12,323 bases of DNA from Stephanodiscus triporus (taxonomy: Eukaryota; Bacillariophyta; Thalassiosirophyceae; Thalassiosirales; Thalassiosiraceae). Both the position numbers and the translations under genes were made by a program. Where the stretch lies: NCBI GenBank assembly GCA_036939755.1, contig JALLAZ010000851.1, forward strand, positions 1 to 12,323. The letters are read 5' to 3'. This document shows positions 2,789 to 12,018 of the stretch, one piece after another. The notes beneath the pieces were generated by a model. The model searched no databases. It was not told the origin of the DNA and worked only from the letters and a program-made list of their open reading frames with translations. Every line of letters begins with the position of its first letter. Positions within the stretch are counted from its first letter, which is position 1.

Positions 2789-2807
2789 GGCTGTGATTTT
2801 GTTAGCC

Positions 2808-2907
2808 AAAAAACAGTACGCAAATACACAAAAGAACAGGTGGGAACAATATTTTTGAAGATTTTTAAGACAGTGTCTTTTGTGCATTAGTGTATCTGTC
2901 AGTTTTT
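2808..2907. repeat. Left subterminal hairpin of copy 1
   Basis: The arm at 2808-2835 (aaaaaacagtacgcaaatac...) is inverted at 2876-2907 (..agtgtatctgtcagttttt), around a spacer of about 40 bases. The same arrangement occurs at 8116-8205 in copy 2. Repeated tacacaaa motifs could be binding sites for the transposase or the zinc-finger partner (inference). Confidence 0.55.
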
Positions 2908-3081
2908 GTCTTGTGTTTTTGTTGCCACGTCGGCCGCAAATGCACAGATGTGCAGTTTCCGGACCATGCCCACCTCACATTTTTTGAGGTCACCCTTGCT
3001 GCTGACGGCTCTGATCTGTTGTTGATGAAGGTTCCCAAGCTCTCTAGGCAATATAGTTGTCTCAATAAAAAAATATCCACC

Positions 3082-4702
3082 ATGGCTGATCCAGCGCCTG
3101 ATGCGTGGGCATGTTCTGCCTGCAGTTACGCCGAGAAATACAATTGCTCTTGCTGCGCCATGTGCGACACGCTGCGACCCAAGGGTAGTTGCTCCATTTT
3201 GCTCATCATTAAAAATTTGACTCACCCTGTCACTGTTGCAGTGCGCGGACGTAAACCTCCAAAGGATAGGTCGACTCAGGGGGGGGTTCTACTGCTCCTT
3301 GTGAGTCTCCCCCACGAAGTGCCAAGAATAAGGCAAATCAGAGAATCGCTGCCCAGTTGATTGGCTTGTCCTGCTCACGTGCCTGTGGCTCAGGTGGTGC
3401 ATAGAGCCCGATTCTTCCCCTGATGGCCCATTGGTCCCCCCTCCTGGTGTTGCCCATGCTGGCCCGGGCCTCGTTGGTGTTGCTGGGGAGGAAGAATCGG
3501 AGTAGTCTGAGGGCAGTTCCCCCTCTCCCTCTTTGGGCGATGTTGGGCGCAAAACAACGGGTTTGGACAGTAGTCCAATTGATCCGCTTATGATCGATTA
3601 CAGTGACAGCTACCATCCTGGCAAAGATTACCCAACCAATGGAGAGGTCAGTAAGTATTCTCTTTTTCAGCATTTCACTCATTACATGACCAAAATTGCA
3701 AGGCCGTTGAGCTTGCCATTTTGGTTGAAGCAGGCACCGTCGTCTGTGATATGGACCCAATGAAGAAGGCTAATCACGAGCAGTTGTTGCTGCGTAAGTA
3801 TATTGAAATCATTCATGAGATTGAAGATAGCTGTTTTGAGGATGCGACAATCCATCGTGATATGTTAGCAGGGTATAAGGGCTACAAGGCCAAGCAGGGA
3901 CTTTACTGGTTTGAACTTGCTCCGCAAGCTAGAACAAGAGATGATGGACGTGCACAAGTTCGTGGTGAGGTTCCGTTTTAACATCCCAGCGGGGCTGCCC
4001 AGCGGTCTAACCCAGCTGCGAGACATGAAGGTGCCTGTGGTGGCTAAGTTGTGGAAGTTGAAATACCTGGTATTGTGTTGTTGATTGTTGTTTTCTTTTT
4101 GCAATCTCATCCAAGCATCCGAGCGTGCACCCTTTTTTTCGCAGAATGAACCTGCTGTCGATTACAACGACATCCAATCCGTCATGGAGCATGTTTCTCA
4201 GAGTTGGTGGCTCAAGCACGAGGTATGCAAATATCGTATTCTTTCGATCTTTGTCCACAAGGACAACAAGGACATCTTGTCCACTCCAACAAGACTTCCT
4301 CCGGGTGATAGTCGTAAGGATGCAAGGAAGAAGACGGCAAGCATGTTGGTCGGTAAACAGGCAGCTGCCAAGGCCAAATGCCCCGTTGAGAAGTACAGCG
4401 ACGTCGACCATCAAATGAAGAAGGTGCAAGTGGATGAGATGCGCTCTCAGGTAGAATCGCCGAGTAAAATTGTGTCACAGATCAATGTCATGTGCAACAA
4501 CGTGGAGATCTACATTGCAATGTTTGGCGAGGATAAATATCATCAAAAAATTGGACAGCTCATGAATAAACTGCCTGGATTGGGCAAAAAAGTTGGCAAT
4601 GGTGTGAATGCTGGGGTGCAGGAGGTCAATTTGACTTTGTCAGCTGGTGATGATGATGATGAAGACAACATTGATGACTACAGAACTGATGGAACTGATT
4701 AG
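3082..4702 (+). pseudogene. RanBP2-like zinc-finger accessory protein of copy 1, exon 1 broken
   Basis: This is the homologue of the copy 2 gene at 8381-10046. The ATG at 3082 sits in an ACCATGG context, and the first 25 residues contain W-x-C-x2-C-x10-C-x2-C (W9, C11, C14, C25, C28). Compared with copy 2, exon 1 is disrupted at an 8-G run (3279-3286), by indels and a stop around 3360-3412, by a deletion near 3690-3700 and by a frame change near 3905-3925. A 75-nt intron, 4070-4144 (gtattg...ttcgcag), sits at the same codon position as in copy 2. Exon 2, 4145-4702, is fully open (185 codons) and ends in a Gly/Asn segment and a very acidic tail (DDDDEDNIDDY). A full-length product cannot be made from this copy. 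Its intact exon 2 confirms the reading frame in copy 2. Confidence 0.75.
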
Positions 4703-4732
4703 TAAAGCATTTGATTTTGTTTCATTTGTTTC

Positions 4733-4904
4733 CCCCGGGCATGGGAGAGGACCCAAAGGAAGGGTGGTAGGGGTGTTCTCATATATTAATTATTTCATTA
4801 AAATATACTTTAAATCATCTAATAAAAATTACCTATTGAATGAACAAATTATAATATGAGGACCCCCTACCACCCTTCCTTTGGGTCCTCTCCCATGCCC
4901 GGGG
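4733..4904. terminator. Long inverted repeat between convergent genes of copy 1
   Basis: A perfect 41-bp inverted repeat (4733-4773 and 4864-4904) extends imperfectly inward for about 12 more bases and encloses an AT-rich loop of about 70 bases. It begins 31 bases after the stop of the zinc-finger gene and ends 62 bases beyond the transposase stop. Transcripts from both sides would therefore carry a strong stem in their 3' UTR or intergenic region. A role as a bidirectional terminator or 3'-end signal is inferred from position. The corresponding repeat in copy 2 is at 10067-10254. Confidence 0.6.
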
Positions 4905-4965
4905 CACAAAGTGATCTGTAAAATAAAAACAACCTATGCTGCGATTGGTCCATTCTGGCAAAATC

Positions 4966-6354
4966 TTACCAACAGTGCCCTAGCCATATGTCGCCCAATT
5001 GAATCGCAACAAATTTCTCCGTCTGATTTACATCAACTGTTGTATGCCCGCTTAGCCACAATCCATCATCACCAATGGGATACCCCCTCCCAACACGAAC
5101 ATCCATCTGCTCCATTTGGTCAAGAAGGAAGTTGTGTAGGCAAGCGCATGCCACGAATATTTTTCGCACTTCCCAATGTCCCGATAATTTAGTCCATGGT
5201 TCAGTATTCTCCACCTCTTCTTCAATATCCCAAAAGTACACTCAACATCCTTCCGGACACTCTCGAGATTAGGGAGAAGTAACCCTCCAGTGTGGCCTTA
5301 TTCACACTCTCGTATGGACGAATCGATTGAGGCCAACACAAATAACTGTTATCACAAATCAAATACATACCCCTCTCTTCCCTGACTTCCCCCCCAGCCA
5401 TGTAGTAACACCACACAACGTCCTTCATCCACACCTTATGAATGTCCCGTACATTTGTGTTGATCTTGACAATATGCTTGTCGTTGAAGGTGCCAAACTG
5501 TGGCCCATAAACACCGAGAATGCACCAATTGAAATCATTGATGGTAGCCCTTCTTCCCCTTTGCTTGATTAAGGTTGCCTGTCCGACAAGCAAACCATTT
5601 TATATGGACAACGTCCTTTGAACCACATGCCCCCGGCAACAATGTGTGATGCGATTCAACTTGGCTATATTCTCCGGAAGTGCAATGTACTCACCCCTCA
5701 TATCCATGAATGCGTTGAGAAACACACAAAGAAAAACTTATGAATATCGGATGTGCAGATAGGAGTCAATGCCCTCAACAAGCAAAATGCAGCGCCGTGA
5801 CCCAAAATGTAAGGTGCAGACATCACCAACAGCTCCGCCCTCTGCACTCCAACGGCCTTGGACGTGTCAGTTCCTCGACCTTTGCAAGGCACATCCAAAA
5901 CCAATGGCAAAACTTGCCAAATCTATCGGACGAAGAGCTTGTAGGTCATATCACGCATCTGCCCGGGCTTCAGGAAGTTGATGTACCAGCACGAAGTCAC
6001 AACACTTTCAAAACAATAGTGTTGGTTTGCCCGACGTCGTCGGCATTGTCATTGGCGCCTACGATGTTGGCCCGCCACATAGTCCTCAACAGAAAAATCA
6101 CAAGAAATGCTGTCAAATTCATATGAACCTGACGCTGACAAATCATCACCACTCTTGTCGAAGCAGGAAAATTCAGCACCAAAATCAAAGCCAAAGTCGA
6201 TGTCCATCAAAACTTCCGAGGAAAAATCAACAAGAAGACCAAAGAAATTGGGGGGGAGGGGGAAAGTCATGGCGGATAGGGTAGGGATAGCAATAGTGCT
6301 GGTGGCAAAGAAATTGGCCAAAGAGGATGGCAGGAGGGAGACGGAAGTAAGCAA
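4966..6354 (-). pseudogene. PIF/Harbinger (Plant_tran-type) DDE transposase of copy 1, multiply frameshifted
   Basis: Frames on the minus strand together match the Plant_tran/DDE_Tnp_4 layout. There is an acidic N-terminus (GDDLSASGSYEFDS), then HKFFFV, a GS-x-DVVHIKW block with the first Asp at 5613-5615, NDKHIVKIN, ICDNSYLCWP with the second Asp at 5351-5353, and a DVECTFxILKKRW block with the Glu at 5241-5243. It ends with ACLHNFLLDQMEQMD and a tail stopping at 4966. The gene is broken by several indels. One lies near 5719 in the HKFFF region, a deletion precedes the first Asp, and about 19 bases are missing near 5548 relative to copy 2. Further single-base shifts lie near 5266 and around 5150-5210. 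The three catalytic positions survive but in different frames. The start is uncertain; ATGs at 6354 and 6270 are candidates. Confidence 0.8.
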
Positions 6355-6589
6355 GGCAGGTGGAAGAGTAGTGTCGACTGGGCAGAAGTGAATCCTCTTG
6401 GAGGAAGATGGCCTTCCCGCCAGAGAACGAATCCTATTCGTCTATATGTACACATGACACATAGACACTCCACACGTCGAGGAATAATTTGTGTGAAAAA
6501 GCCAAACAAAACAAATTCACAAATAGGGCTAGTCAGTTTGTAATGTGTATTTGCATAACCGCACAACAAAAATGCCTTTTGGGCCCTTC

Positions 6590-6676
6590 CCGACATAACA
6601 ATTACACAAAAGAACAGTAACAAACAAAAAAACACCTTCGCACCGTCTTTCGTGTATTTGTGTATTTGTGTATCTG
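6590..6676. repeat. Right subterminal repeats of copy 1
   Basis: Tandem gtgtatttgtgtatttgtgtatctg just inside the right TIR is partly inverted by ataacaattacacaaaagaa about 40 bases inward, mirroring the left-end hairpin. Confidence 0.45.
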
Positions 6677-6785
6677 GCTAAAAAAATCACAGCCTTATTC
6701 ACCCATTCTAAAAGTTTGGATTTGGGAGTTCAGCAGTTTCAGTTAGACAAGGGCATCATTTTGGTGTGAGAATAAGCATCAAAAA

Positions 6786-6996
6786 TGTATTACCCTTTTC
6801 TTGGGGCCATGGCCACCCCCGGGGTTTCTTTTTCAATTTTTTTTAACGTGCACGCCACACAAAACACACGAGAAAGCAGGGTTTGTTGTGAGTTGATCGT
6901 GTGTTTTGTCTAGTGTTTTGTGTGGCATGCCCGTTAAAAAAAAGTCAAAAAAAGAAACCCTGGGGGTGGCCATAGTCCTGAGAAAAGGGTAATACA
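6786..6996. mobile_element. Fold-back MITE, 211 bp
   Basis: The outer ten bases TGTATTACCC are perfectly inverted at 6987-6996. The arms 6786-6868 and 6913-6996 are complementary over about 83 bases with a handful of mismatches, sharing words such as ggccaccccc, gggtttctttt and gccacacaaaacac. They surround a loop of about 45 bases. The ends can be read as TA flanking TACCCTTTTCT-type TIRs, which would suit a Tc1/mariner-type TA duplication, but that is inference. There are no genes. It lies 92 bases beyond the right end of Harbinger-like copy 1. Confidence 0.7.
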
Positions 6997-6999
6997 ATA

Positions 7000-7212
7000 G
7001 GGAAATAAACACTAATACACAAAAACAGTTGAAAACTATCATCCCACCATCTTCCTGCAAAAAATTTCCATAGTACATGATTTTTTCTGAAAATACCACC
7101 AGCCACCAACCACTCGCCTGGCACATGAGATGATGGTAAGCATTACCACTTGCATTCATCTCTCTTGCTACCTTCACCTTCATTGCCCTGTTGCCTCTTC
7201 TTTCTCAGTGTT
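7000..7212. other. Intergenic, no gene seen
   Basis: Sequence between the fold-back MITE and the microsatellite. Open frames here are short and show no recognisable domain. Confidence 0.3.

Positions 7213-7267
<55 letters not shown>
7213..7267. repeat. (GCA)18 microsatellite
   Basis: An uninterrupted run of 18 GCA units plus a final G. It falls in open frames that would give poly-Ala on the minus strand (frame 7143-7466), but the surrounding predicted protein is compositionally biased and unconvincing as a gene. Confidence 0.9.
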
Positions 7268-7268
<1 letters not shown>

Positions 7269-8096
7269 GCTGGGCATTAAGTTAAGTTGACTGCCATGTG
7301 TTGCCTGATCCTTCCTTCTGTCCCTCTTCTCTGTCATTGTCAGCTTTCTGTCTTCTGTTGTTGGCCATGCAGTTGCCATCCCCATCCCTCTCATCACTGC
7401 CATTGCTATTGCCATCTCCATCTCTGATAGCAGTCCTGCTTCAGCTGCCTCCCTCCACCTTGTCATTGTTGAGTTAACTTTTTGTTGTCATATTGTCCTT
7501 GTTATTATCCTTGACAATGTCATCATCGTCATTGTCGTTGTCCTGCCGGTGGTAGCAGACCACCCTGGATTGCTGCCGCCTTCACTGGCACCTGACACTG
7601 TGTAAGTGTGCACACACCTCCCTGCTCACTGCCCTGACATCATCTATCCTCCTCATCTCCTCACTGCTATTACCACCATGCTGGACCATGCTCTTGGTTG
7701 CAGCCTCATACTACACCGGTGCATTGGTGATGCAACTCCATCCCATCCCTGATTGCAAGAGATGCTCAACATTGCAGTGCTGCTCTGGGTCAATGCCGCT
7801 GGGTAGAGGGAGGAGGGACTGGGACACCATCAGGATATTGACATTGATGAATGGGATCCCTCCCACACTCCACGCCATTGCTGCTGACGTTGCCACTCCC
7901 CCAATCTCCTCTCCAAACAGACGACGGCCGAGTCAATGGCAACGTGTTTCCTTCAACAAATCTTGCTGAAGTGAGCTCATTGCCTGGGTGCCTTCGTCTG
8001 TTTGCTCGGTCGAGAAGGCTGGAGGATTTATCGGTGCTTTCGAAGTGTGGAATTCCCTCGTGGGCTTGCTATCTTTCATGGGCCAACACTATCTCA
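7268..8096. other. Inter-element spacer, CT-rich, no gene supported
   Basis: About 830 bases rich in CATTGCC/CATTGTC/CATCTCC-like words around 7330-7560, suggesting decayed simple sequence. Short open frames exist (for example 7688-7969), but they show no domain, no conserved start context and no partner copy in the window. The region ends in TCA at the left end of Harbinger-like copy 2. Confidence 0.35.
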
Positions 8097-8115
8097 GGCT
8101 TTGTTTTTTTAGCTC

Positions 8116-8205
8116 AAAAACAGATACACAGATACACAAAAGAATAGTTGGGAACAATTTTTTTCGGATGGCATCTTTTGTGTATTTGTGTATTTGTCTG
8201 TTTTT
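8116..8205. repeat. Left subterminal hairpin of copy 2
   Basis: The arm 8116-8143 (aaaaacagatacacagatac...) is inverted at 8174-8205 (...gtatttgtctgttttt), with one 4-base difference in length and two substitutions. It is a clearer version of the structure at 2808-2907. Confidence 0.65.
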
Positions 8206-8380
8206 GCCCCGTGTTTTTGTTGCCACGTCGCCCGCAGATGCGCAGATGGCAGCTTCTGGGCCATGCCCACCTCCCATTTATTTGAGGTCACCCTTGCTGC
8301 CGACGGTACCGAGTTGACGTCCGCGAAGGTTCCGAAGCTCTCGGGGCACTATCAACGCCTCAGGAAAAAACCTTGACACC

Positions 8381-10046
8381 ATGGCTGAACCACCCCCCGA
8401 CGTGTGGACATGTCCCGACTGCAGCTACAGCGAGAACGTCGATAGCACTGTCTGCCAAATGTGCCAATCGGCACAACCCAAGGGTAGTCGCTCCGTTTTG
8501 CTCGTCAATAAGAATTCGACCCACCCTGCCGCCATTGCCACACGGTGGGGGCATCCACCTTCGGCAGCAACCAAGGCAAGGTCGACTTGTTTGGCTGCTC
8601 GTCCTGTTGCACCCCGTGAGTCTCCCCCACGAGGTGCTAAGGATACAGCGAATCAGAGGATCGCCGCCCAGTTGGCCCAGTACACCCCCGTGCCTGTGGC
8701 AAAGGTGGTGGTGCATTCCCCTGTGACTTCCCCTGATGGCCCCTTGGTCCCCCCTCCTGCTGTTGCACGAGCTGACGAGGGCGCGGGGCTAGGGGATGAT
8801 GAGGATTCGTCATCTGACAGCAACGGTTCCCCACCTCGCCCTTCTCGCAATGTTGGGAGGAAGACGGCGGGTTTGGATGCCTGTCCAGATGATTCTGATT
8901 ATGGTCTGGACGGTGATGTCGTTGACGATGATCTCCCGACCGATGGAGAGGTCAGTAAGTACTCTTTTTTTCAGCGTTTGATTCATTACATGGACGGGGC
9001 GGTGATCGATCAGCAAAACCGCAAGGCAGTTGAGCTTGCAATTTTGGTTGAAGCGGGCACGAAGGTGCGCGATACGGACCCGATGAAAAAGGCAATGCGT
9101 GAGCAGGTTTTGCATTGTAAATATGTTGAAATTATAAACAAGCTCGAGGACAACTGCTTCGGGGACTCGACGGTTCGTCTCGATATGGTGACGATGTTTA
9201 AGGGTGGTAAGGCTAGGCAGGGGCTTAGCGGTGCAAACTTGCTCCGCAAGCTTGAACGGGAGATGATGGAGGTTCGAAAGTTTGCTGTTAAGTTTCCCGG
9301 TTTCAACAACCCCGCTGGGCTGCCCAGTGGTCTCACTCAGCTGCGAGACATGAAGGCGCCTGTGGTGGCGAAGCTGTGGAAGTCAAAATACCCGGTAATG
9401 TGTTTTCAATTGTTACTTTGCATTCTCTTCAGAGGCTGCATTGACTGTGTCCTTTTTATTGCAGAATGAACCAAGTGTCGATTATGACGACATTCAATCC
9501 ATCATGCAACATGTTCCGAAGCAGTGGTGGCTGGAGCACAAATTGTGTAAGTATATTCTTACAATCCTCGTCCACAAGGACAACAAGGACATCTCGACAA
9601 GTCCCACGTGACTTCCAGCAGGTGATACTCGCAGAGATGCGAGTGAGAAGAAGGCGAAGGAGTTGGCTGATGCTCGTAGGGCTGCGAAAGCGGAGCGCCC
9701 AGTGGAGACGTATGGTGATGTCAATCATCATATGAAGAAGGTGCGTGTCAATGGCATGTGCTTGCAGGTAGAGAAAAATATCATCAAATCGATCGTGTCA
9801 CAGATCAATGTCATGCGTGACAACGCAGAGATATACAAATCTATGTTCGGTGAGGAGAAATATCTCGAAAAAATTGCACAGCTCATGAATAAACTGCCGG
9901 GCTTGGGTGAGAACAATGTTGGCGATGGTGACAACAATGTTGGCAATGGTGAGACTGTGGTTGTGCCGGAGGTGGATTTGACTTTGACTTCGTCGGTGGG
10001 CGAGGATGACAATGAAGACAACTATGGAACTGACGGAACTTATTAG
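8381..10046 (+). CDS. RanBP2-like zinc-finger accessory protein of a Harbinger-like element (one in-frame TGA)
   Basis: Exon 1 is 8381-9394 (338 codons, ACCATGG start), the intron is 9395-9464 (70 nt, gtaatg...ttgcag, phase 0), and exon 2 is 9465-10046. The intron is placed by homology to copy 1, where the next exon also begins Asn-Glu-Pro. Residues 9-28 form W-x-C-x2-C-x10-C-x2-C, the spacing of RanBP2-type zinc fingers, although the usual Asn is shifted by one. Residues ~40-125 are Pro/Ala/Arg-rich and ~125-165 are Asp/Ser-rich. Residues ~191-338 and the start of exon 2 are predicted globular and largely helical (FFQRLIHYM, VELAILVEAG, PMKKAMREQ, LRKLEREMMEVRKF). The C-terminus has INVM..AEIY..MFGEEKY..LMNKLPGLG and an acidic tail. 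A TGA at 9609-9611 (codon 387) replaces the AGA of copy 1. No Myb/SANT repeat is seen. Its role as a DNA-binding or targeting partner of the transposase is inferred from co-location. Confidence 0.7.
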
Positions 10047-10066
10047 GTTGTTATGTGTGACTTATT

Positions 10067-10254
10067 GTTTCCCTGGGCATGGGTGAGGACCCAATTGAAG
10101 GGTGGTAGGGGGGTCCTCATTTTTTATTAGTTACTTAATGTAATCTTTTACATCAATGCATTCAGTACGACTTATTATCGAATTAACTACTAATTTAAAA
10201 ATGAGGACCCCCCTACCACCCTTCAATTGGATCCTCACCCATGCCCGGGGAAAC
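10067..10254. terminator. Long inverted repeat between convergent genes of copy 2
   Basis: The arms 10067-10124 and 10197-10254 (58 bases each) are complementary at 56 positions around a 72-base AT-rich loop. It starts 21 bases after the zinc-finger stop and ends 90 bases beyond the inferred transposase stop. It is the positional equivalent of 4733-4904, and three base pairs differ between the copies with pairing retained. A bidirectional 3'-end or terminator role is inferred. Confidence 0.65.
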
Positions 10255-10343
10255 AAAGTAATTTGACCAATAACAACAAGCTAGGCTGCAACTGGTCCGT
10301 TCTGATAGAATACGTGCAGATGCCTCGCCAACAGTGCCCTACG

Positions 10344-11803
10344 TCACCCAAATTGTGTTGCTAGAAACTTCTCCGTCCTCTTGTGAACATCAACTGCTGT
10401 ATGCCCACTCAGCCACAAACCTTCATCACCGATGGGATATACCCCCTCCCAATCCAAACATCCATCAGCTCCATTTGGTCATGAAGGAAGTTGTGTAGGC
10501 ATGCACACGCCTTGAATATTTTTTTGCACTTCACAATGTCCCGATAAAACAGACCGTTGTTGAGTATTCGCCACCTCTTCTTCAATATCCTAAAAGTACA
10601 CTCAACATCCTTCCGCACGCTCTCGAGATTAGTGGAGAAGTAACCCTCCAGCGTGGTCTTGTCCACACTCTCGTATGGAGAATTCAATTCAGGCCAACGC
10701 AAATAACCGTTATCACAAATGAGATACATATCCCTTTCTTCCCTGACTCCCCCCCCAGCCATGTAATAATGCCATACAACGTCCTTCTTCCACCCCAAAC
10801 AAATTTTCTGTACACAAATTTTCTGTACATTTGTGTCGACCTTGACGATATGCTTGTCATTGAAGGTGCTGGACAGTGGCCCGTAAACACCGAGAATGCA
10901 CCAATTGAAATCGGTGATGCATTGGAAGCAAGCATTGGGTATCCCTCCTTTCCCTTTGCTCAATTAAGGTCGCCTGTTGGACAAGCGGACCATCTCACAT
11001 GGATGACATCCATGGATCCACAAGCACCCAGAAGACCAACATCTTCATAGAAATGCGTGACACGCTTCAACTCGGTGATATTTTCAGAAAGCGCAATATA
11101 CTCACCTCTCATATCCATGAATGCATCAAGAAACACAAAGAAAAACTTGTGAACCTTCGACATGGGTGCTGATATGAGTCAATGCCCTCAATAAGCGGAA
11201 ATGTGCACCATGGCCCAAAATGTACAACGCAGTCATCACCAACAACTTCGCCCTCTCAAAGAATTTGGCTCTGCACATCAACAACCTCGGACGCCATATG
11301 TATCCACATGCGATAAGTCTGCAGGTTGGTTCCTCGACCTTTGCAAGGGACATCCGGAACCAATGGTGAAATTTGCCAAATCTATCGGATGAAGAAAGGT
11401 CGTGGGTCATATCGCATATTTGCCCCAGCTCCAAGAAGTTGACGTACCAGCACGACGTCAAAACAGATTGAATACGAATATGATGGTGTCGGTTCAGCCG
11501 ACAAGGATGCCGGCGTTGGCGCCTACAACGACGGCCAGCCGTAAAGCCCTCAACAGAAAACCCACAAGAAACGCCATCATATTCATACGAACCTGACAAA
11601 TCATCACCACTCTCATCAAAGCGGGAGAAATCAGCACAAAAGGGGATGGCAGGAGGGAGACGGAGGAAGCAAGGGAGGCGGAAGAGTTGTGTCATCTCGG
11701 GGGAAGTGGATCCTCTTGGAGGAAGATGGCCTTCCCGCCAGAGGGAAAATCCTGAACGAATCCAGATTTGTGTATTTGTACAGGTGCCAAATAGCCATTC
11801 CAT
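10344..11803 (-). pseudogene. PIF/Harbinger (Plant_tran-type) DDE transposase of copy 2, frameshifted
   Basis: On the minus strand the order is an acidic N-terminal region (SRFDESGDDLSGSYEYD), a helical block (SSSDRFGKFHHWFRMSLAKVEE), LLVMTALYILGHG and HKFFFVFLDAFMDMRGEYIAL. GSMDVIHVRWSACPTGD follows, with the first catalytic Asp at 11008-11010. Next come GVYGP..FNDKHIVKVD, LICDNGYLRWP (second Asp 10712-10714) and RKDVECTFRILKKRWRIL (Glu 10601-10603), then ACLHNFLHDQMELMD. These are the landmarks of the Plant_tran/DDE_Tnp_4 family, which cuts and pastes Harbinger elements at TWA sites. Breaks are a 4-base insertion near 11160-11175, a TGA at about 10963-10965, a single-base loss near 10928 and a 2-base insertion near 10438. 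About 135 bases of the N-terminal coding region present in copy 1 are absent near 11640. A 15-base tandem duplication (10799-10828) adds five in-frame residues. The start is uncertain. Confidence 0.85.
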
Positions 11804-11924
11804 GTGGAGGGATTATTCGTGCAAAAAAGCGGAACAAAACAAATACACAAATAGCTCTGGTCATTTTGTAGAGTTTATTGGTGTATCTGTTCAAAAAAAT
11901 ACCTTTTTGGCCATTCCCGACAGA

Positions 11925-11997
11925 ACAAATAAACAAGAGAACAGTAGCAAACAAAAAAACTTCGCACCATCTTCTGTGTATTTGCGTATCTGCGTAC
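11925..11997. repeat. Right subterminal repeats of copy 2
   Basis: tgtgtatttgcgtatctgcg near the right TIR is partly inverted by cagaacaaataaacaagaga about 35 bases inward. This is a weaker version of the left-end hairpin. Confidence 0.4.
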
Positions 11998-12018
11998 CGG
12001 TCTAAAAAAATCACAGCC

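Follow-up and report, generated by a model that had tools for sequence, protein, structure and literature searches.

The contig JALLAZ010000851.1 of the diatom Stephanodiscus triporus (GenBank assembly GCA_036939755.1), analysed here as one whole stretch of 12,323 nucleotides (the window, contig C841 of the 21.65-Mb assembly), carries two Harbinger-like transposable elements, copy 1 (cp1) and copy 2 (cp2), in which a first gene, ORF1, and a DDE transposase gene converge on a long hairpin. A ~45-nt noncoding motif contained in each arm of this hairpin, just past the stop codon, is far better conserved than the adjacent coding sequence. The unit that matters is probably this single arm, a stop-proximal motif of the 3′ untranslated region (3′ UTR), and the long hairpin, although real, is probably secondary. 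The same motif also follows the stop codon of an unrelated gene whose residue pattern suggests a tyrosine recombinase (YR). The parts of the two hairpins are as follows:

4733 to 4773, plus strand: left hairpin arm of copy 1, the motif in the ORF1 3′ UTR (core GGGCATGGG..CTCA at 4737-4781)
4782 to 4856, no strand: AT-rich loop between the two motifs of copy 1
4864 to 4904, minus strand: right hairpin arm of copy 1, the motif in the transposase 3′ UTR (core 4857-4900), the arm common to single-arm relatives
10067 to 10124, plus strand: left hairpin arm of copy 2, the motif in the ORF1 3′ UTR (core 10075-10119)
10125 to 10196, no strand: AT-rich loop between the two motifs of copy 2
10197 to 10254, minus strand: right hairpin arm of copy 2, the motif in the transposase 3′ UTR (core 10202-10246)

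A conserved motif past the stop codon

Further members of the family were found by junction and transposase searches of the assembly, and only the best candidates were scored, so that the counts given here are lower bounds. In three relatives (C1309, C234 and C1294) the motif, GGGCATGGGNGAGGACCC..GGGTCCTCA, stands in sense orientation 21-31 nt past the transposase stop, and the distance from stop to motif ranges from 18 to 34 nt throughout, apart from 123 nt in one copy, C145. Measured to the motif core, it is 34, 28 and 28 nt from the ORF1 stop in cp1, cp2 and C433, and from the transposase stop it is 34 nt in C433, 21 nt in both C234 and C1294, 31 nt in C1309, and 24 nt in C468. The decayed frames of the cp1 and cp2 transposases and of C1227 end earlier, and there the motif follows the stop that the relatives share by 33, 34 and 18 nt (hand count). 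Altogether, each of the 12 arms runs in the same sense as its gene, and 11 of them lie close after the stop codon.

Over 352 cells compared across the deepest split in the family, {C234, C1294} versus {C1309, C433, cp1, cp2}, the motif has an identity of 90%, whereas 713 windows of equal width (48 columns) in the transposase part, the last of which extend slightly into the 3′ UTR, have a mean identity of 63% and a maximum of 81%, so none reaches the level of the motif. The edges of the conserved block are sharp (...TTTGTTTCCCC / GGGCATGGGAGAGGACCC-AAAGGAAGGGAGGTAGGGGG-GTCCTCA / AT-rich): between C1294 and C1309, 43 of 44 motif bases are identical, compared with about 50% of the 3′-UTR flanks (17/32 and 27/59).

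The motif is also largely specific to these elements, according to pattern searches that may miss diverged copies. The first 20 motif bases, GGGCATGGGNGAGGACCCAA, are found at 19 places in the assembly with up to three mismatches, versus five for the reversed control; 12 of these places have zero or one mismatch and all belong to these elements, and the other seven have three mismatches. A stem pattern, GAGGACCCN{6,30}GGGTCCTC, occurs at eight places, again all in these elements, with none for the control. The 3′ half of the motif alone is unspecific at up to three mismatches (23 places versus 18 in the control), and at up to two it is found at 12 places, namely nine arms, the tail of a YR element on C61, C869, and C145:7167-7186. 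The C869 site is a degraded look-alike of the motif on the minus strand, at about C869:1483-1528 (L194), in a stretch in which inspection by eye revealed no transposon gene.

Beyond the assembly, the longer exact motif pattern has no match in viral_contigs, where the palindromic stem alone is unspecific (at least 120 stretches) and no transposase relative was confirmed, and a single match in genome_contigs, located in a bacterial metagenome-assembled genome (MAG), with about two expected by arithmetic. Phage records gave no match. Strict searches of the literature on Harbinger hairpins and convergent genes, and on diatom transposon UTRs, motifs and hairpins, returned no paper, and none of the papers listed by looser ones deals, judged from title and opening lines, with a 3′-UTR motif shared among transposons.

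One may argue that the motif is conserved since it encodes a short peptide (ATG GGN GAG GAC CCA NNN GAR GG), as five of the eight substitutions between ATG and GGG fall on third codon positions (hand count, alignment A1). However, these numbers are tiny, the motif lies past the main stop codon, and the end of the frame is not conserved, being TAG in most Harbinger arms but open in C234, in the transposase arm of C433 and in the YR copies. A coding role is thus very improbable.

The long hairpin and the history of its arms

An earlier note on this DNA placed long inverted repeats between the convergent ORF1 (plus) and DDE transposase (minus) frames, and they are present there in both copies. 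The stems form 41 of 41 Watson-Crick pairs in copy 1 (4733-4773 with 4864-4904) and 56 of 58 in copy 2 (10067-10124 with 10197-10254), where pairing falls off just past the motif edge, with six mismatches in the next 15 pairs. Their predicted RNA folds reach -120.2 and -129.6 kcal/mol (z -16.3 and -18.3), and none of 200 shuffles folds as well. The three differences between copies that the note had found on both arms, with pairing kept, are exactly where it put them, but its statement that every differing site differs on both arms does not hold, as two more are one-sided. Over the 41-nt arm, cp1 and cp2 differ at four left-arm and four right-arm positions, three of which coincide, and each arm has one change of its own, C4736/T10074 in the left and G4885/A10231 in the right, which together make up the two mispaired sites of copy 2. 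A coincidence of at least three in four has a hypergeometric P of 0.0015, or ~5e-5 if the same new pair is required, and thus the arms did not change together by chance.

The relatives show how far the long stem extends in the family. A full hairpin with both arms is found in C433 as well, and reading frames are broken in all three hairpin copies (cp1, cp2 and C433). C1309, C234 and C1294 have the right arm only, and their stretch between the ORF1 stop and that arm is AT-rich, without a left arm. Hence, motif-bearing copies with the whole junction visible divide equally, three with two arms and three with one. In C468 the right arm is present and the contig ends 18 nt further, with the left side outside it. 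Neither arm was seen in three more distant members with junctions read (C1222, C366 and C107); the inverted-repeat scan alone also covered eight further DDE loci (C484, C972, C1324, C450, C104, C674, C859 and C61). Since three of the six fully visible motif-bearing copies lack a left arm, the family as a whole does not conserve the long stem. The earlier note had looked to freely mismatched arms in other copies as the sign against a selected structure, and the outcome is stronger than that, one arm being wholly missing. Of the two explanations it offered, homogenisation of the arms is the one that fares better, and the long stem as the selected unit is the less likely.

In a midpoint-rooted tree of transposase DNA (six rows; the motif was excluded, as was C468, of which only the end aligns), a branch with support 97/97 separates the two-armed copies from the rest, with C1309 adjoining them and C234 and C1294 farthest away. 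The transposase matches of C234 and C1294 contain no stops, the ORF1 match of C234 crosses one TAG, and the single-arm C1309 is broken. Most simply, the left arm would be an inverted duplicate of the right arm, gained once. In such a history, one inverted duplication in one subclade would have carried the motif, along with its edges, to the end of the opposite gene; both convergent genes there end in the motif, and its two copies face each other as a long hairpin. Weighing against this history, it depends on six Harbinger copies and a midpoint root, for which two losses of the left arm are the alternative, and the single-arm C1309 is itself a broken copy.

Alternatively, the arms might be the terminal inverted repeats of a nested insertion resembling a miniature inverted-repeat transposable element (MITE), with the single-arm copies as deletion products. 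Palindromic elements of this kind do exist in the genome, for example at 6786-6996 of the window. However, no target-site duplication is visible by eye at the outer edges, the block shared with the YR element begins inside the arm, two losses would be required on the midpoint-rooted tree, and no free-standing two-armed copy is among the matches found. We therefore give a nested insertion hardly any weight.

Within each hairpin copy the two motifs are almost the same, with one left-right difference in 44, 45 and 45 aligned bases (gap columns 1, 0 and 4), whereas substitution at the coding-sequence (CDS) rate since the root of the clade predicts 5.6, 12.9 and 10.6 (P 0.024, 4e-5 and 3e-4). Counted per arm against the inferred clade state, there are 11 substitutions where about 29 would be expected at the CDS rate, and thus constraint explains part of the likeness and co-change the rest. 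With an outgroup, two of the two-sided changes map to the cp2 branch and one to the stem of cp2 and C433. All three are at spacer or loop positions of the short motif, without effect on its own short stem.

According to two studies (PMC8794818, PMC8604942), template switching can create hairpins and homogenise their arms, giving paired changes. The likeness to the inverted repeats described there is that one event makes a reverse-complement copy or changes both arms pairwise; the difference here is that the repeat is made of a conserved motif with which two convergent transposon genes end, and that no inversion of the spacer, a trace of template switching, was found in the cp1-C433 and cp2-C433 comparisons, in which the loops align best in forward orientation. 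It is rather likely that the arms have been kept alike by constraint on each motif together with homogenisation, by template switching or gene conversion, rather than by selection on the long stem. A point against this explanation is that the arms evolve more slowly than the CDS in the hairpin clade, where selection may act on motif or stem.

Selection might instead act on the long hairpin itself, kept by compensatory changes as a bidirectional terminator, as a source of small RNA or as a DNA cruciform. This would fit the hairpin's very stable stems, the three two-sided changes with their low P, its presence in three copies, and arms that are closer than free evolution predicts. Nevertheless, we regard it as unlikely. 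The left arm is missing in half of the fully visible copies, including C234 and C1294 with their stop-free transposase matches (despite the one TAG in ORF1 of C234), whereas the three hairpin copies have broken frames (as does the single-arm C1309), one-sided changes occur, as does a 4-nt insertion in one arm of C433, and the two-sided changes spare the short stem. In addition, Rfam gave only matches below gathering score on the long hairpins, microRNA models among them, the MIR2630 match reaching 56.4 bits versus a threshold of 144. No curated microRNA family matched at its gathering score. On five single-arm and YR loci, Rfam gave one unrelated weak match, below gathering score.

A second carrier and the possible role of the motif

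A DNA query with the C1294 arm also matches C1227 and C145, where the motif follows, in sense, the stop codon of a different and unrelated gene. The C145 frame has 529 aa and ends in FAVDL, the same end as its relative P0163. Six residues, R225, K252, H348, R351, W377 and Y386, are invariant in 23 relatives of this gene, and we take this R-K-H-R-W-Y pattern to be that of tyrosine recombinases, in which R-H-R-Y are the catalytic residues. In the C145 frame K, H, R, W and Y are present, whereas the first R precedes its start as called. By its residue pattern, the second carrier gene would be a Crypton-like tyrosine recombinase, an identity read from that pattern, as the gene matched no Pfam or solved-structure profile. 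Among 120 listed relatives, two bear the names Discostella pseudostelligera and Skeletonema menzelii, which point to a centric diatom as the likely host, and a third name is that of a bacterial MAG (P0234). CryptonS elements of oomycetes and a diatom offer a likeness, in that the relatives of the YR carrier have the invariant residues and two of those listed are diatoms by name; the difference is the 3′-UTR motif, which goes unmentioned in the available part of that account (PMC3212892).

C1227, which begins inside the YR gene, is 92% identical to C145 over 655 bp to just past the stop and 80% over 230 bp starting with the motif, the two motif cores being identical. A third YR tail, on C61, starts inside the motif as a truncated copy, and four other tails of the same type (C1287, C366, C264 and C1120) start right after the motif and lack it. 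The long distance from stop to motif in C145 is due to an insertion, a small inverted repeat (L072 4257-4333) that is absent from C1227. Downstream of the motif, the YR elements have another short hairpin with nearly perfect pairing, CTACGTGACTGGA..TCCAGTCACGTAG (L071 773-810, L072 4091-4122), and the tail holding it recurs at several other places in the genome. The YR motif shares two states with part of the Harbinger family: AATGG, as in C433 (ATTG in cp2), and, given the gap placement of alignment A1, GGGTGG, as in the hairpin copies and C468. These two sites would suggest a transfer of the motif from a C433-like arm to the YR element.

What the motif does can be approached from its position and its form. 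Its bases can pair as an 8-bp stem, GAGGACCC/GGGTCCTC, that encloses a G-rich loop, with AT-rich sequence downstream. The stem is paired in 97.9% of cells; four of its eight pairs are invariant and three have one-sided changes with pairing kept, each of which gives G-U on the sense strand and would give A-C on the antisense strand. At least five stem pairs are kept in 12 of 12 sense folds versus 9 of 12 antisense folds, the stem being lost in the other three. These observations are compatible with an RNA element that would act on each mRNA, in 3′-end formation, stability or export, by using a host factor, and such a host-factor role would explain why the YR element has the motif in a matching position and orientation. 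Several results speak against it. None of the eight pairs has changed on both sides; sense folds are not clearly better than shuffles (z -1.37 to +0.85), and antisense z-scores are better, down to -3.34 in C145 and -3.04 in C1227. Moreover, sharing with the YR element amounts to two full copies and one half copy, and the recombinase identity of the YR gene is read from residues of which the first R lies outside the C145 frame. The sequence is thus firmly conserved, whereas an RNA structure is only a candidate; because sense folds resemble shuffles and antisense folds do better, we put the chance of an RNA element somewhat under even.

The main functional rival, nearly as likely, is a DNA site bound by a protein of the element or the host, serving in anti-silencing, as an insulator, or as a G-rich site of pausing or termination. 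It would fit a motif conserved in sequence rather than in structure, with sense folds no better than shuffles, and the G-rich loop GGARGGWGGWRGGGGGG recalls the enrichment of guanines between closely spaced tandem human genes, as reported in one study (PMC8972054). There is also the precedent of VANDAL transposons, in which noncoding sequences are targets of the elements' own proteins; the VANC targets resemble the motif as noncoding sequence serving the element itself, but they are tandem and fast-diverging, whereas the motif here is single or paired, strongly conserved, and present in two kinds of element (PMC10398659). On the other hand, a DNA site would not require that all 12 arms be in sense and 11 of them close after a stop codon; there is one copy per gene end, without tandem repeats, and two unrelated recombinases would need a common binding site unless a host protein binds it.

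The two elements and what the motif may mean

The further features of the two elements are these:

2789 to 6694, no strand: Harbinger-like element copy 1, ends GGCTGTGATTTT..AAAATCACAGCC, terminal repeats read from the sequence, reading frames broken
3082 to 4702, plus strand: ORF1 of copy 1, decayed, TAG stop at 4700-4702
5055 to 5593, minus strand: C-terminal part of the DDE transposase of copy 1, in pieces in several frames
8097 to 12018, no strand: Harbinger-like element copy 2, terminal repeats read from the sequence
8381 to 10046, plus strand: ORF1 of copy 2, GT-AG intron at about 9396-9465 (by eye), TAG stop at 10044-10046
10281 to 10283, minus strand: TAG where the C433 transposase stops, 34 nt before the motif; the decayed frame of cp2 itself now ends earlier
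10409 to 10963, minus strand: DDE_Tnp_4 / Plant_tran part of the copy 2 transposase

The copy 2 transposase matches the Pfam families DDE_Tnp_4 and Plant_tran (E 4e-11 and 6e-10), both above gathering score. Terminal inverted repeats are present, with GGCTGTGATTTTKTTAG at both ends of copy 1 and GGCTTTGTTTTTTTAG versus GGCTGTGATTTTTTTAG in copy 2. PIF/Harbinger elements duplicate a 3-bp target, TTA/TAA or alike, and the flanking triplets read by eye, TTG/TTA for copy 1 and TCA/TTA for copy 2, are imperfect as such a duplication. A companion protein with a Myb/SANT domain is usual for these elements in plants and animals, although not strictly defining. In a Pfam search of the ORF1 pieces, no Myb/SANT domain was found and the sole match was Zn_ribbon_RanBP, at 15 bits versus a cut-off of 27; because the Myb/SANT companion is absent from these matches, the elements are called Harbinger-like. 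They thus resemble PIF/Harbinger in their DDE transposase, terminal inverted repeats and second gene, and differ in what the second gene matches (a sub-threshold RanBP-type zinc ribbon only) and in a convergent layout with a conserved stop-proximal motif, doubled in one subclade.

The zinc-ribbon match of ORF1 (RanBP2 type, window 8381-9469) has a counterpart in the label of one relative, P0159, among the 42 listed. Subterminal GTGTATTTGTGTATTTG-like repeats, inverted, lie near the element ends (window 8120-8197 and 6657-6676) and are perhaps binding sites of the transposase. Just beyond copy 1, the 211-bp near-palindrome at 6786-6996 (TGTATTACCC..GGGTAATACA) is a MITE-like repeat that recurs at C1066 and C829 and, in part, at C1227, while C760 has two arms separated by about 2.5 kb. 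An imperfect inverted repeat of ~145 bp at 1347-1490 (CCCACCCATATCTGCATAC..GTATGCAGATATGGGTGGG) is perhaps another palindromic element.

In summary, a tentative account that would join these observations is that a stop-proximal 3′-UTR element has passed between a DDE Harbinger-like and a YR Crypton-like element of the same alga, transposons unrelated in mechanism, has been kept in both for giving their mRNAs access to a host factor for 3′-end formation or RNA handling, and was doubled by an inverted copy in one lineage. When a perfect hairpin shows changes that look compensatory, this is usually read as proof that selection maintains the structure, but the relatives here suggest that the structure is a side effect of the doubling of a motif conserved as a single arm. 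Of more interest is a noncoding stretch that is better conserved than the neighbouring transposase and shared with an element whose residues indicate a different chemistry. If the motif is indeed an RNA element, it would point to a host pathway on which unrelated transposons draw by way of their 3′ UTRs.

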